64,000 nucleotides of DNA, taken from Erythrobacter sp. 3-20A1M. Lineage in GTDB: Bacteria > Pseudomonadota > Alphaproteobacteria > Sphingomonadales > Sphingomonadaceae. Below the pieces are notes generated by a model. It had not been told where the DNA came from. It saw only the letters and a program-made list of their open reading frames with translations, and ran no database searches. The stretch spans positions 310,001 to 374,000 of the forward strand of contig NZ_CP045200.1 of the NCBI RefSeq assembly GCF_018636735.1, in the 5' to 3' direction. Below are positions 7,011 through 23,655 of this stretch, one piece after another. The position numbers and the translations under genes are program-made. Numbering within the stretch: position 1 is the stretch's first letter; each line of letters begins with the position of its first letter.

Positions 7011-7855
7011 GGGCGACCGTTACCGTTACCGTTACCGTTACCGTTACCGTTACCGTTACCGTTACCGTTACCGTTACCGTTGCCGTTACCGCCGCCCGCA
7101 TTGGCGTTCACGCCGATACCGCCGACGCAGACACCCAGGCCCAGCCCGTTGCCGGTTCCGTTGTTGAGCCCCACTGCGAGGCCGTTACCGTTGCAATTGC
7201 CGCCAGAACCGCCCGGGCCGCTCGCTACCGGTTTGCCACACAGGACGGGCGGCGTGACGCGCTCGCCGAAAGGCTGGTTGCGCACTGCCGCCTCCAGGGC
7301 CAGCTCGAACTCGTCGGAGCCGCCCCACAGCCAGCCACTGTTGAACAGGCGCGGCACGAGCGCGTCGACCTGGTAGAAGATGACGTCGTCGGGAGAGCCG
7401 CGACCGGTGGTACCGGCGGTCTGGTGGGTATCGTACACCCCGTTTTCGTTCTCGTCGCGCCAGCAATCGCCGTCGTCGGCGTCGAAGCTGCCATTCTTGT
7501 TGACGTCGGTCAGCAAAGGTTCGGCATTGCCGATGCTGGAGAAGCGGTAGAAGCTGGTCTGCTTCACATCGATCTCCGCCCCGATCGCGATGGTCCCGAT
7601 CTGGTCGCGGATCATCTGCTCGACCTGCTCCTCCACGGTCTCGCCGGAATAGGACAGCTCGGGATTCTGCACGGAAGCACGGCGCGCGGCGTCGTTCACC
7701 GCGCCCTGCATCACCGCGCGGACATAGCTCTGATAGCCGAAGTCGAGCCCGGCGATGATCACCGTCAGCAGGGGGATCAGGATCAGCGCGAACTCGACGA
7801 TGGTCGCGCCGCGTTCGTCGCGCGCGATGCGGGAGGGGAACATGCGGCGGATCAT
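7007..7855 (-). CDS. TadE/TadG-family protein with Gly-Asn repeat tail
   Basis: Second Tad pilus-assembly protein, 282 aa. The N-terminal GATIVEFALILIPLLTVIIA is the TadE membrane segment. The extracytoplasmic part contains an Asp/Asn-rich stretch (DVNKNGSFDADDGDCW, then DENENGVYD) that looks like a calcium-binding loop. The last ~75 residues are Gly/Asn-rich and end in about 13 Gly-Asn dipeptides encoded by a perfect hexanucleotide repeat. It overlaps TadG upstream and the next TadE-like gene downstream by 4 bases each. Its pilus role is inferred from family and neighbours; the tail is unusual and its function unknown. Confidence 0.82.
   Translation of the reverse strand: MIRRMFPSRIARDERGATIVEFALILIPLLTVIIAGLDFGYQSYVRAVMQGAVNDAARRASVQNPELSYSGETVEEQVEQMIRDQIGTIAIGAEIDVKQTSFYRFSSIGNAEPLLTDVNKNGSFDADDGDCWRDENENGVYDTHQTAGTTGRGSPDDVIFYQVDALVPRLFNSGWLWGGSDEFELALEAAVRNQPFGERVTPPVLCGKPVASGPGGSGGNCNGNGLAVGLNNGTGNGLGLGVCVGGIGVNANAGGGNGNGNGNGNGNGNGNGNGNGNGNGRP
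7016..7087. repeat. Hexanucleotide tandem repeat (ACCGTT)n
   Basis: Eleven perfect copies of ACCGTT occupy 7016-7081, followed by one variant GCCGTT. The repeat lies in frame at the 3' end of the TadE/TadG-like gene and encodes alternating Gly and Asn. A 6-bp unit can expand or contract without changing the frame, so the tail length may vary between strains. It ends 6 bases before the start of the next gene. Confidence 0.95.
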
Positions 7856-18602: not shown

Positions 18603-19376
<774 letters not shown>

Positions 19377-19962: not shown

Positions 19963-20136
19963 GGAGAGTCGCGAGGCGCGCGCAAACGCGCGCACCGCAT
20001 TCGATCAATTCTGACGTCGGAAAACTTTTATTCAAGCCTTGTTTTCGCAGGCCGCACGAATCACAAAGGGGATGAGATCGGCGGCGAACGACGATTTCAA
20101 CCCCCGGTGATACGGCGGGTTATGGCTCTACAGCGC

Positions 20137-20151
20137 GAAAGGAGGTGATCC
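20137..20151 (+). promoter_or_regulatory. Extended Shine-Dalgarno, complementary to 15 nt of 16S 3' end
   Basis: GAAAGGAGGTGATCC is the exact complement of the conserved 3' end of bacterial 16S rRNA (GGATCACCTCCTTTC). Natural sites rarely match more than 5-8 bases. It ends one base before the ATG of an 18-codon ORF, with the GGAGG core at a good distance. Confidence 0.85.
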
Positions 20152-20152
20152 G

Positions 20153-20209
20153 ATGTCTCATGGTTCAGCAGAGAGGTCGGCAAGTTTCCGCACGGAGCAC
20201 TATCGGTAG
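20153..20209 (+). CDS. Orphan 18-aa small ORF with very strong RBS
   Basis: ATG 20153 to TAG 20209 encodes MSHGSAERSASFRTEHYR, a basic, Ser/Arg-rich peptide with no hydrophobic segment. The evidence for translation is the 15-nt match to the anti-Shine-Dalgarno sequence directly upstream. The stop codon lies inside the first of three hairpins. It is not a leader peptide in the usual sense, because the next gene downstream is on the opposite strand and a terminator-like stem follows. It may be a small protein, or a ribosome-engaging element of a regulatory RNA. No family was recognised. Confidence 0.55.
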   Translation: MSHGSAERSASFRTEHYR

Positions 20210-20261
20210 GATTCCTTCGATAGAGGCACCGTGAGCGGCACTTCCTGGCCGCTGACCATGC

Positions 20262-20319
20262 GAAGGCCAGTCTCCCCCAGGGCATCGAGCCGGGCGCGGA
20301 GGCTGGCCTTCTCATTTTC
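20262..20319 (+). terminator. Terminator-like stem-loop closing the small RNA
   Basis: Arms GAAGGCCAGTCTCC and GGAGGCTGGCCTTC pair over 14 bases with one G-U wobble around a 22-base loop, followed by TCATTTTC. The moderate T content makes it a plausible, not ideal, intrinsic terminator. On the other strand it lies 15 bases beyond the end of the oxidoreductase gene and could serve both. Confidence 0.55.
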
Positions 20320-20334
20320 GCTACCGGCGAGCCG

Positions 20335-21222
20335 CTAGCAAGAGTAATCCGGTCGCTCGATGTCGGCGACGATCCCGAGCTGCTCGGGCGACCAGCCCAG
20401 CACCTTCTTCGTCCACGCGTTGGAAGCGGGGCCGTTATTGGCAACCCAGGTGGCAAGGGGTCCGAAATGCGCCTCCGCCTCTTCGGGTGTCAGCGACCTG
20501 GTCGGCAGGCCGAGCTGGCGTCCGATCGCTTCTGCGATCTCGCGGTAAGGCACGCCCTCCTCGGCAACCGCATGGTAGGCCTCGCCGCGGGCACCGCGTT
20601 CCAGGGCTAGCCGGTAGACGCGTGCGGCGTCCAGACGGTGAACCGCCGGCCACAGGTTCGCGCCATCACCGACATAGGCCGAGAAGCCCTTCTCGCGAGC
20701 AATGCCTGCGAGCATGGGCACGAAGCCATGCGTTTCGCCTTGGCCGTGAACGGAGCGCGGGTTGCGCACAACGTTCGCATGGATGCCGCGATCGGCCAGC
20801 GCAAAGGCGGTCTGCTGGGATGCGCGCGGAAAGGCCGGCATCACCTCCGGCCGGTCGGTTTCCAACGCCTTCTCGCCCGTGAGGTGCAGGAAGCCATCGG
20901 TAACGACGATCGGCCGTGTCGATCCGGCGAACACCTCGCCGAACGTTTCGATCGCGGCGCTGTCCTCGGCCGCCAACTCGCCGATCCGTGAGATGTCGAG
21001 ACCAAAGGCGGTATGGATGATTCCGTCCGCATCCGCAGCGCCCCGACGAAGAACGTCCAGGTCGCCCAGTCCGCCGACCACTACCGTGCCCCCCGCAGCA
21101 AGAAGCGCCGCACCTTTTTCCTCCGACCGGACCAGACCGACGACCGAGTGACCGGCCGCCATCAGCTCGCGCGCGACGACCGAGCCGATCCAGCCATTCG
21201 CACCTGTCAGGAATACACGCAT
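20335..21222 (-). CDS. SDR-family NAD(P)-dependent oxidoreductase / epimerase-like
   Basis: Extended short-chain dehydrogenase of 295 aa. The N-terminal Rossmann motif is MRVFLTGANGWIGSVVAREL (TGxxGxxG), followed by the nucleotide-contacting GLVRSEE and IIHTAFG strands. The usual catalytic YxxxK is not evident, so the reaction cannot be stated. It is divergently transcribed from a TetR-type gene with a strong operator between them, which implies that TetR controls it, perhaps in response to its substrate. Confidence 0.88.
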   Translation of the reverse strand: MRVFLTGANGWIGSVVARELMAAGHSVVGLVRSEEKGAALLAAGGTVVVGGLGDLDVLRRGAADADGIIHTAFGLDISRIGELAAEDSAAIETFGEVFAGSTRPIVVTDGFLHLTGEKALETDRPEVMPAFPRASQQTAFALADRGIHANVVRNPRSVHGQGETHGFVPMLAGIAREKGFSAYVGDGANLWPAVHRLDAARVYRLALERGARGEAYHAVAEEGVPYREIAEAIGRQLGLPTRSLTPEEAEAHFGPLATWVANNGPASNAWTKKVLGWSPEQLGIVADIERPDYSC

Positions 21223-22572: not shown

Positions 22573-23655
22573 ATGGATTTCGAGCACATTCCCCACCCCG
22601 CGCCGGTACCGGGCGAAACCCGCGACCAGGCGATCGCCGATCCGGGCTTCGGCAGCGTCTTTACCGATCACATGGCGATCATCGAATACGACGCCAACGA
22701 TGGGCGTGGTTGGCATTCGGCCCGCATCGCACCGCGCGAACCGCTCAGCCTCGATCCCGCGGCGGCGGTTCTGCATTATGCGCAGGAGATCTTCGAAGGG
22801 CTGAAGGCGTACAAGCAGGCGGACGATAGCCTCGCGCTGTTCCGGCCAGAGGCGAATGCGCGCCGGTTCCGGGACAGCGCACGGCGGCTCGCCATGCCCG
22901 AACTGCCCGAGGAGCTGTTCCTCGAATCGCTGCGGCGGCTGGTGGAGGTCGACCGCGCCTGGGTGCCGACCGTGCCGGGCGGCTCGCTCTATCTGAGGCC
23001 CTTCATGTTCGCGGACGAGGCCTTCCTCGGCGTGCGTCCGGCGAAGAAGTACAAATATCTCGTCATCGCCAGCCCGGCGGGCAATTATTTCAAGTCCGGC
23101 GCGCCGGCGGTGAAAATCTGGGTCAGCCAGGATTATGTCCGCGCCGCGCCCGGCGGCACCGGGGCGGCGAAGACCGGCGGAAATTATGCCGCCTCGCTGG
23201 TTCCGCAGGCCGAGGCGATCGAGAAAGGCTGCGACCAGGTCGTGTTCCTAGACGCGGTGGAGCGCAAGTGGATCGAGGAACTGGGCGGCATGAACCTGTT
23301 CTTCGTGTTTGACGACGGCAGCGTGGTGACACCCCCGCTGACCGGTACGATCCTGCCCGGCATCACTCGCGACAGCCTGCTGACGCTGCTGCGCGAAGAA
23401 GGGCTGACCGTGCGCGAGGAGCCCTATTCGCTGGACCAGTGGCGCGCCGATGCCGAGAGCGGGAAGCTGGTCGAGACCATGGCCTGCGGCACCGCGGCGG
23501 TCGTCACCGCCGTGGGCACGGTCGCGCAGCCGGACGGCGAGTTCACCATCGGCAGCGGCGGTCCGGGTCAGCTAACCACGAAGCTGCGCGAGCGGCTGGT
23601 CGGCATCCAGAAGGGCGCGGTCGACGACACCCATGGCTGGGTGACGCGGCTCTAG
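22573..23655 (+). CDS. ilvE: Branched-chain amino-acid aminotransferase
   Basis: PLP enzyme performing the last step of leucine, isoleucine and valine synthesis and the first of their breakdown. At 360 aa it belongs to the longer BCAT group. It has HYAQEIFEGLKAY, GSLYLRPFMFADEAFLGV, and the lysine-containing GGTGAAKTGGNYAASL. The C-terminal CGTAAVVTAVGTV is also conserved. ATG 22573 (MDFEHIPHPAPVPG) is chosen; the frame is open upstream but overlaps the preceding gene. It converges on the flavoprotein gene with one base between stops. Confidence 0.95.
   Translation: MDFEHIPHPAPVPGETRDQAIADPGFGSVFTDHMAIIEYDANDGRGWHSARIAPREPLSLDPAAAVLHYAQEIFEGLKAYKQADDSLALFRPEANARRFRDSARRLAMPELPEELFLESLRRLVEVDRAWVPTVPGGSLYLRPFMFADEAFLGVRPAKKYKYLVIASPAGNYFKSGAPAVKIWVSQDYVRAAPGGTGAAKTGGNYAASLVPQAEAIEKGCDQVVFLDAVERKWIEELGGMNLFFVFDDGSVVTPPLTGTILPGITRDSLLTLLREEGLTVREEPYSLDQWRADAESGKLVETMACGTAAVVTAVGTVAQPDGEFTIGSGGPGQLTTKLRERLVGIQKGAVDDTHGWVTRL

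Follow-up and report, generated by a model that had tools for sequence, protein, structure and literature searches.

The stretch analysed here (the window) is 64,000 nucleotides (nt) of DNA from Erythrobacter sp. 3-20A1M (contig NZ_CP045200.1, positions 310,001 to 374,000), and the subject is a small element on its plus strand at window positions 20137–20319. An earlier note, made from the letters of the sequence, had described a 15-nt Shine-Dalgarno (SD) sequence, an 18-codon open reading frame (ORF) and three hairpins (H1, H2 and H3, the last with a T-rich tail), and all of these parts lie where it had placed them. The element is a conserved RNA gene and, judged by its match to the Rfam model, is a divergent relative of CC2171 (RF01867). 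Its comparison across Alphaproteobacteria points to a translated small RNA (sRNA) made from a stand-alone gene, whose fold would be gated by the ribosome; we put the probability of this reading at roughly 0.55.

Layout of the element

The element opens with the SD GAAAGGAGGTGATCC (20137–20151), 15 nt complementary to the single-stranded tail of what we take to be the alphaproteobacterial 16S 3′ end. It is followed by the ORF MSHGSAERSASFRTEHYR (20153–20209; 18 codons, ATG at 20153, stop TAG at 20207–20209), codons 3–6 of which hold the 5′ arm CATGGTTCAGC (20159–20169) of a long-range helix called P0. Hairpin H1 (20200–20223) has the last ORF codons in its 5′ strand and the stop in its loop. 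Hairpin H2 (20234–20253; loop ACTTCCTG) has a near-invariant stem and overlaps the P0 3′ arm GCTGACCATG (20251–20260), which lies directly 5′ of the intrinsic terminator hairpin H3 (20262–20319; stem-loop 20262–20311, then the T-rich tail TCATTTTC). The segment 20132–20319 folds at -94.5 kcal/mol and is more stable than its dinucleotide shuffles (z -5.3). The exact 15-mer has one site in the window, and allowing up to three mismatches adds a single site, with three.

Among 30 loci found with the Rfam model, which does not require the exact 15-mer, 23 have it unchanged and the other seven differ solely inside the last four positions (one base in six loci, two in one); the start codon, ATG in 16 and GTG in 14, always lies one base past the SD. 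Across 47 cluster representatives, pairing of the SD is lower than in shuffled bodies (0.57 versus 0.68, p 0.0003), as is that of the start codon (0.34 versus 0.58, p 1.6e-5); therefore, the RNA presents this landing pad and does not hide it. The full-length complementarity of the SD to the 16S tail, claimed in the earlier note, holds for the presumed alphaproteobacterial 16S end. When a 47-base query containing this presumed end was searched against plasmid records, 360 matched, 203 at no less than 99%; among the organisms are Azospirillum, Ensifer, Sphingobium, Paracoccus and Rhizobium, and Priestia and Clostridioides as well. The end had no match in the copy of the window's own genome that was searched, which may be masked or different. 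SDs whose pairing exceeds the canonical length are also described in Staphylococcus aureus, where they are a common habit of initiation and not, as here, the property of a single gene per genome (PMC13009471). In Caulobacter, 75.4% of the genes are reported to have no SD (PMC4117421).

A fold called P1, in which an internal anti-SD would sequester the SD, was first suggested by start-codon hairpins in the lineage alignments. An SD complement within the RNA better than 95% of shuffles was seen for 33 of 167 members (33 of the 108 outside the sphingomonads and none of the 59 sphingomonads), the cluster test was weak (24/5000), and the SD is more paired than in shuffles in just 12 of the 47 representatives. 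P1 was therefore dropped as a general feature, and some lineages may have it.

Among 43 aligned members of the window's family, H1 and H3 covary, with double-sided changes at one pair in up to 16 and 23 of the sequences, respectively. The absence of covariation that would have spoken against the three stems is thus not seen for these two, but the H2 stem is near-invariant and hence shows none. The TTCCT reported earlier in the loops of both H1 and H2 is present in the window, but across the family it is found in only 4 of 43 H1 loops and 13 of 43 H2 loops; the H2 loop has CTTCC in 37 of 43, mostly as CACTTCC. In none of the 59 sphingomonads does the SD complement outdo shuffles, and anti-SD loops as the key feature of the element are not supported in these bacteria. 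CcsR-type RNAs follow a DUF1127 ORF and carry CCUCC-type anti-SD hairpin loops. The kinship with them that the earlier note had suggested is not upheld, since CCTCC occurs in 0 of 43 H1 loops and that loop is not conserved. CcsR is like SmelA075/A099, SisA–D and the present element in being a small alphaproteobacterial RNA with SD- or anti-SD-related sequence. SmelA075/A099 have CCUCCUCCC loops (PMC3927594) and SisA–D a 10-mer anti-SD motif (PMC12559287), whereas the element here exposes an SD, has CTTCC in one loop and carries an ORF.

A reading frame of set length and a long-range helix

The length of the ORF is held within narrow limits. Close relatives were removed by clustering. In the complete set of 184 members in 54 clusters, 45 of the 54 cluster representatives reach their first in-frame stop at codon 14–31; one stops earlier, three at codon 32–35 and five later. 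In the other two frames, stops fall at codon 14–31 in 11 and 12 representatives and earlier in 30 and 23. Inspection by eye marked eight loci as other genes, doubtful cases or long ORFs (L071, L077, L103, L142, L145, L166, L187 and L196). Omitting them removes the single 12-codon ORF and those of more than 35 codons; the stop then lies at codon 14–31 in 44 of 47 representatives and in none earlier, whereas either of the other frames has 10 of 47 in that range. The earlier note's short ORF with a maximal SD is supported as genuine. By lineage (a set in which L142 was kept and viral contigs were left out, as also for the substitution ratios below), the sphingomonad type has exactly 18 codons in 53 of 59 members (of the other six, four have 19 codons, one has 20 and one has 59, this one being probably a different gene), the Rhodobacterales type 18 codons in 19 of 19 and Bradyrhizobium 14 codons in 7 of 7. 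Stop codons TAA, TGA and TAG all occur across these lineages of fixed length.

The peptide behaves differently. The ratios of nonsynonymous to synonymous differences (pN/pS) in frames 0, 1 and 2 are 1.16, 0.93 and 0.62 in the sphingomonad type (45 unique sequences) and 0.81, 0.80 and 0.83 in the Rhodobacterales type (19 sequences). In the larger ORF groups there is no codon-phase signal or third-position excess of change, and no purifying selection on the peptide is seen (frame-0 pN/pS about 0.8–1.2). Peptides from different orders appear unrelated by eye, and a hydrophobic 15-residue stretch is present in 2 of 176 (the eight loci named above being left out of this count too). The sphingomonad-type peptides do keep MSHG.., and these 5′ codons are kept at silent sites as well, which is expected because the P0 arm overlaps them. 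With ORF length constrained and the peptide under no visible purifying selection, it appears that translation over a set length is kept and the peptide is not. A small protein, one of the roles proposed in the earlier note, thus finds no favour here, with pN/pS about 1.

P0 pairs the first codons of the ORF with the 24 nt that directly precede the terminator. Over the 47 representatives, cognate arms pair at -17.09 kcal/mol and permuted arms at -12.51 (z -10.1, reached by 0 of 5000 permutations); with nothing dropped, in the 53 representatives that have a terminator, z is -10.5, again with 0 of 5000. Four control pairs of windows in the same RNAs gave z values of -0.2, -2.5, -0.6 and -0.3. The cognate advantage also holds within groups, with 0 of 2000 permutations in each of VSH, MSS and other (two large groups at 40 each and a mixed one of 16; L071, L142 and one member without a terminator were left out). 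Cognate arms have no advantage over permuted ones within the sphingomonad, Rhodobacterales and Bradyrhizobium types, as expected because the arms hardly vary there. Taken by these pairing energies, P0 is preserved by compensatory change between lineages.

Relatives, distribution and neighbouring genes

At a relaxed threshold, cmscan matches the window element to the full RF01867 model with 40.5 bits (E 2.7e-7), a score below the curated membership cut-off of 75. Eight loci hand-picked from several orders (Brevundimonas, Novosphingobium, Defluviimonas, a Hyphomonadaceae bacterium, Sphingomonas, Mesorhizobium, Inquilinus and Bradyrhizobium) all match, with E from 2.9e-16 to 0.043; Brevundimonas is the strongest (86.1 bits, above the cut-off) and Bradyrhizobium the weakest (28.3 bits, E 0.043). 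At E≤1e-3 the model matches 61 of 289 Alphaproteobacteria genomes, nine above the cut-off, and among 14 control genomes it matches in Caulobacter vibrioides only. The window element shares with CC2171 the 5′ block GAAAGGAGGUGAUCC-n-(A/G)UGUCUCAU, a helix joining the codons that follow the start to the stretch ahead of the terminator (with different arm sequences) and an intrinsic terminator at its end; its ORF has another sequence.

CC2171 reportedly comes from a 2008 paper by Landt on Caulobacter sRNAs. In Rfam 15 the entry is typed simply as an sRNA gene ("caulobacter sRNA"). Text searches of the literature gave no functional study of CC2171 among the matches listed, most of which were judged by title or the start of the abstract; of those naming CC2171 or RF01867, two concern the RNA, namely the paper on Rfam 15 and a list of predictions for Mesorhizobium, and the others were judged by title. 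A text search with the 15-mer was uninformative, the matches listed looking like uses of 16S primers.

In the window's family, DNA search at E≤1e-3 gave a match in 260 of 298 genomes, in some to the 5′ core only, so the lack of conservation that would have told against the element is not found. The 15-mer with its start codon (GAAAGGAGGTGATCCNRTG) is present in 42 of 289 Alphaproteobacteria genomes, in single copy in each (a reversed-pattern control gave 0 of 289), and a looser form of the pattern in 56 of 289. In a draw from the phylum, 34 of 67 Alphaproteobacteria have the pattern and none of 182 other Pseudomonadota do; it is present in 76 of 99 members of the window's family and 0 of 48 genomes from other families in a draw from the order. 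The class draws were spread across many families and included small genomes. When 14 family genomes were searched again with one mismatch allowed, 13 had the exact form; one-mismatch matches in two genomes (G023 and G219) sit before other ORFs. The pattern-based sets (the genome-contig scan, whose loci are among the matches listed, and the class, phylum and order draws) required the exact 15-mer and so cannot show its invariance, which rests on the family DNA search and the Rfam-model loci. One of these 13 family genomes (G091) has two copies, L046 and L262, one of the sphingomonad type and one CC2171-like (68.9 bits). Plasmid and phage collections gave no match to the element (one query was 69 bases). 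Viral contigs gave 27 pattern matches, of which about five resemble the element by their printed ORF and the others do not; the element-like sequences on IMG/VR contigs (L222, L223, L230, L234 and L243) are perhaps host flanks of proviruses.

In the sphingomonads the element often lies between two named genes. Of 93 loci of this type, 56 have ilvE downstream on the same strand (55 of them within 217–1032 nt) and 55 have a tlyA-like gene upstream on the opposite strand; neither gene is near any of 126 loci of other types. In the window these are ilvE at 22573–23655 (domain Aminotran_4) and a tlyA-like rRNA methyltransferase gene at 18603–19376 (domains S4 and FtsJ). An epimerase gene on the minus strand, a TetR gene and an ORF of unknown kind lie between the element and ilvE, and the gene next to the element (20335–21222) is on the minus strand. 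The earlier statement that no gene follows on the element's strand is therefore right for the window's immediate neighbour, but in 56 of the 93 sphingomonad loci ilvE does follow on that strand. Since ilvE is not adjacent in the window and is absent near the other types, the element is a stand-alone gene, which agrees with the earlier view that it is not an attenuator leader. This context rests on the search for ilvE and tlyA by name, since a survey of nearest ORFs picks by length and gives unreliable strand counts in GC-rich DNA. Several loci of the Rhodobacterales type have a presumed YhhQ/QueT-like gene upstream (14 in the cluster; noted at L073, L084, L089, L137, L148 and L210), and six (L068, L075, L089, L120, L127 and L137) have downstream, in the same orientation, a presumed gene for an ArfB-like factor of ribosome rescue.

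A promoter-like block lies upstream of the window element (20037–20069, plus strand), with the palindrome CAAGCCTTG beside a -35-like TTGTTT (20041–20046) and, after 17 nt, a -10-like CACAAA (20064–20069). In the family, CAAGNCTTG is found upstream in 35 of 41 aligned members, with a CACATT-like box about 17 nt past it; picked out by eye, this pair suggests the family promoter and would place the start of transcription near 20076 in the window. A simple sigma-70 scan of the window element gave no promoter site. The palindrome CAAG-N-CTTG, which covers the presumed -35 box, is shared by 35 of 41 members; it may serve as a binding site for a regulator. Many elements of the Rhodobacterales type have TTGACA-like boxes near the SD. 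In a look for covariation in the 5′ leader of the window's family, RNAalifold predicted no pairs in the leader columns.

Proposed mode of action and its alternatives

An accessible landing pad, an ORF constrained in length (mostly 14–35 codons), P0 and an intrinsic terminator together argue for a translated RNA whose fold would respond to the ribosome. A 30S subunit would dock at the exposed SD and meet P0, which starts a few bases from the start codon; initiation and elongation would then unzip the helix. The ribosome would halt before the P0 3′ arm, leaving this arm and the adjacent hairpins free until P0 re-forms, and where initiation is scarce P0 would close. The RNA could thus report ribosome occupancy, or be switched by it, with the peptide a by-product; candidate outputs of the open form are pairing with a target, altered stability of the RNA, or the holding of ribosomes. 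A more specific version, offered tentatively, is that the RNA may be a switch whose ligand is the ribosome itself, in which class-wide, peptide-independent translation of the tiny ORF, launched by near-perfect pairing with the 16S tail, toggles the conserved 5′–3′ helix; it might then sense initiation capacity (free, intact 30S subunits) and relay this through its 3′ part.

Several observations weigh against a ribosome-gated fold. One of the four control windows, the one after the terminator, has a small cognate excess (z -2.5, 34/5000), probably due to composition, and Bradyrhizobium P0 arms pair no better than permuted ones. P0 is near-invariant, without covariation, in the window's family, and in alignment A3 just two of its pairs changed on both sides, with a covariation score that 12 of 500 shuffles reached. 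The predicted probability of the top P0 pair is 0.56 in the window, 0.91 in L008 and 0.98 in L066 but 0.01 in L032, 0.02 in L091 and 0.00 in L106, so P0 competes with other folds. The arms vary by lineage and so imply no class-wide target sequence, and even the looser SD-start pattern is missing from 233 of the 289 Alphaproteobacteria genomes. Finally, RNA constraint on the first codons cuts the power to detect selection on the peptide, and Bradyrhizobium and the smaller groups have too few differences to judge it.

Two rivals stand out as the strongest, a ribosome decoy and an sRNA acting in trans, both rather unlikely. In the former, the SD beside P0 would hold 30S subunits in a slow, non-productive standby and so lower translation capacity, with the ORF there merely to let escaped ribosomes terminate properly. 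The open SD and start codon and the presence of a single copy per genome where the element is found would suit such a trap, as would complementarity to the whole single-stranded 16S tail as we take it to be. Yet a trap needs no ORF free of early stops, and a stop before codon 14 is found in just 1 of 54 representatives in the ORF frame but in 30 and 23 of 54 in the other two; very high RNA abundance would also be required. The trans-acting sRNA, if anything a shade less probable, would use anti-SD-like segments, or the P0 3′ arm once freed, to pair with target mRNAs in a CcsR-like way. In its favour, CC2171 carries the sRNA label, CTTCC is in the H2 loop of 37 of 43 family members, CACCTCC- or CATCTCC-like segments precede the terminator in the Rhodobacterales alignment, and the 33 of 108 non-sphingomonads whose SD complement beats 95% of shuffles exceed the expected 5%. 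On the other hand, the H1 loop motif is kept in 4 of 43, the complement does not outdo shuffles in any of the 59 sphingomonads tested, and no loop sequence common to different orders was seen.

A functional micropeptide gene is improbable: conserved start, stop and strong SD and the MSHG.. of the sphingomonad type would fit it, but pN/pS is about 1, peptides are unrelated across orders, and the kept 5′ codons are conserved at silent sites too, as the P0 arm predicts. Still less probable is a leader or attenuator that acts in cis on a downstream gene, which in the window's family would be ilvE; its same-strand position in 56 of 93 sphingomonad loci (55 within 217–1032 nt) is set against the three genes that intervene in the window, one of them on the opposite strand, its absence from the 126 loci of other types, a window peptide without Leu, Ile or Val codons, and a strong terminator. 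A type I toxin mRNA, a fold-back RNA of the hok kind whose small ORF encodes a toxin, can be given hardly any weight. Such mRNAs presumably share the long-range 5′–3′ pairing and the small ORF, but a hydrophobic stretch is present in 2 of 176 peptides and the sequence is not conserved.

The ribosome-gated RNA has partial parallels in Pos19 and rnTrpL, which are also short RNAs with a translated ORF (PMC5036791, PMC10117765). Pos19 has a 150-nt ORF that is confined to R. sphaeroides strains, and the rnTrpL ORF encodes the functional leader peptide of an attenuator; in the element here the peptide is not conserved, whereas ORF length and P0 are. Of the earlier note, then, the stand-alone RNA gene and the short ORF with its maximal SD are supported, the CcsR kinship and the small protein are not, and the ribosome decoy it named is a possible if rather unlikely role. 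The relation to CC2171, the spread of the element through the class and P0 lay outside what the note could show. The family name CC2171 was already known in Rfam; new, within the searches made, are the apparently translated, peptide-independent ORF, P0 as a proposed gate across the class, and the extension to the window's family. An Rfam sRNA family thus appears to be a translated RNA across several orders of Alphaproteobacteria, and if selection does keep translation without a conserved peptide, it would be an unusually clean example of the ribosome as a regulatory ligand. Such an RNA may be easily overlooked, its ORF being too short for protein annotation and the sRNA label leading to treatment as non-coding; a Caulobacter transcript map counts an RNA as non-coding where no coding sequence was detected (PMC4117421). 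As a separate observation, the Inquilinus contig L124 has a match to the Rfam family whalefall-1 at 7753–7804 (44 bits, cut-off 37).
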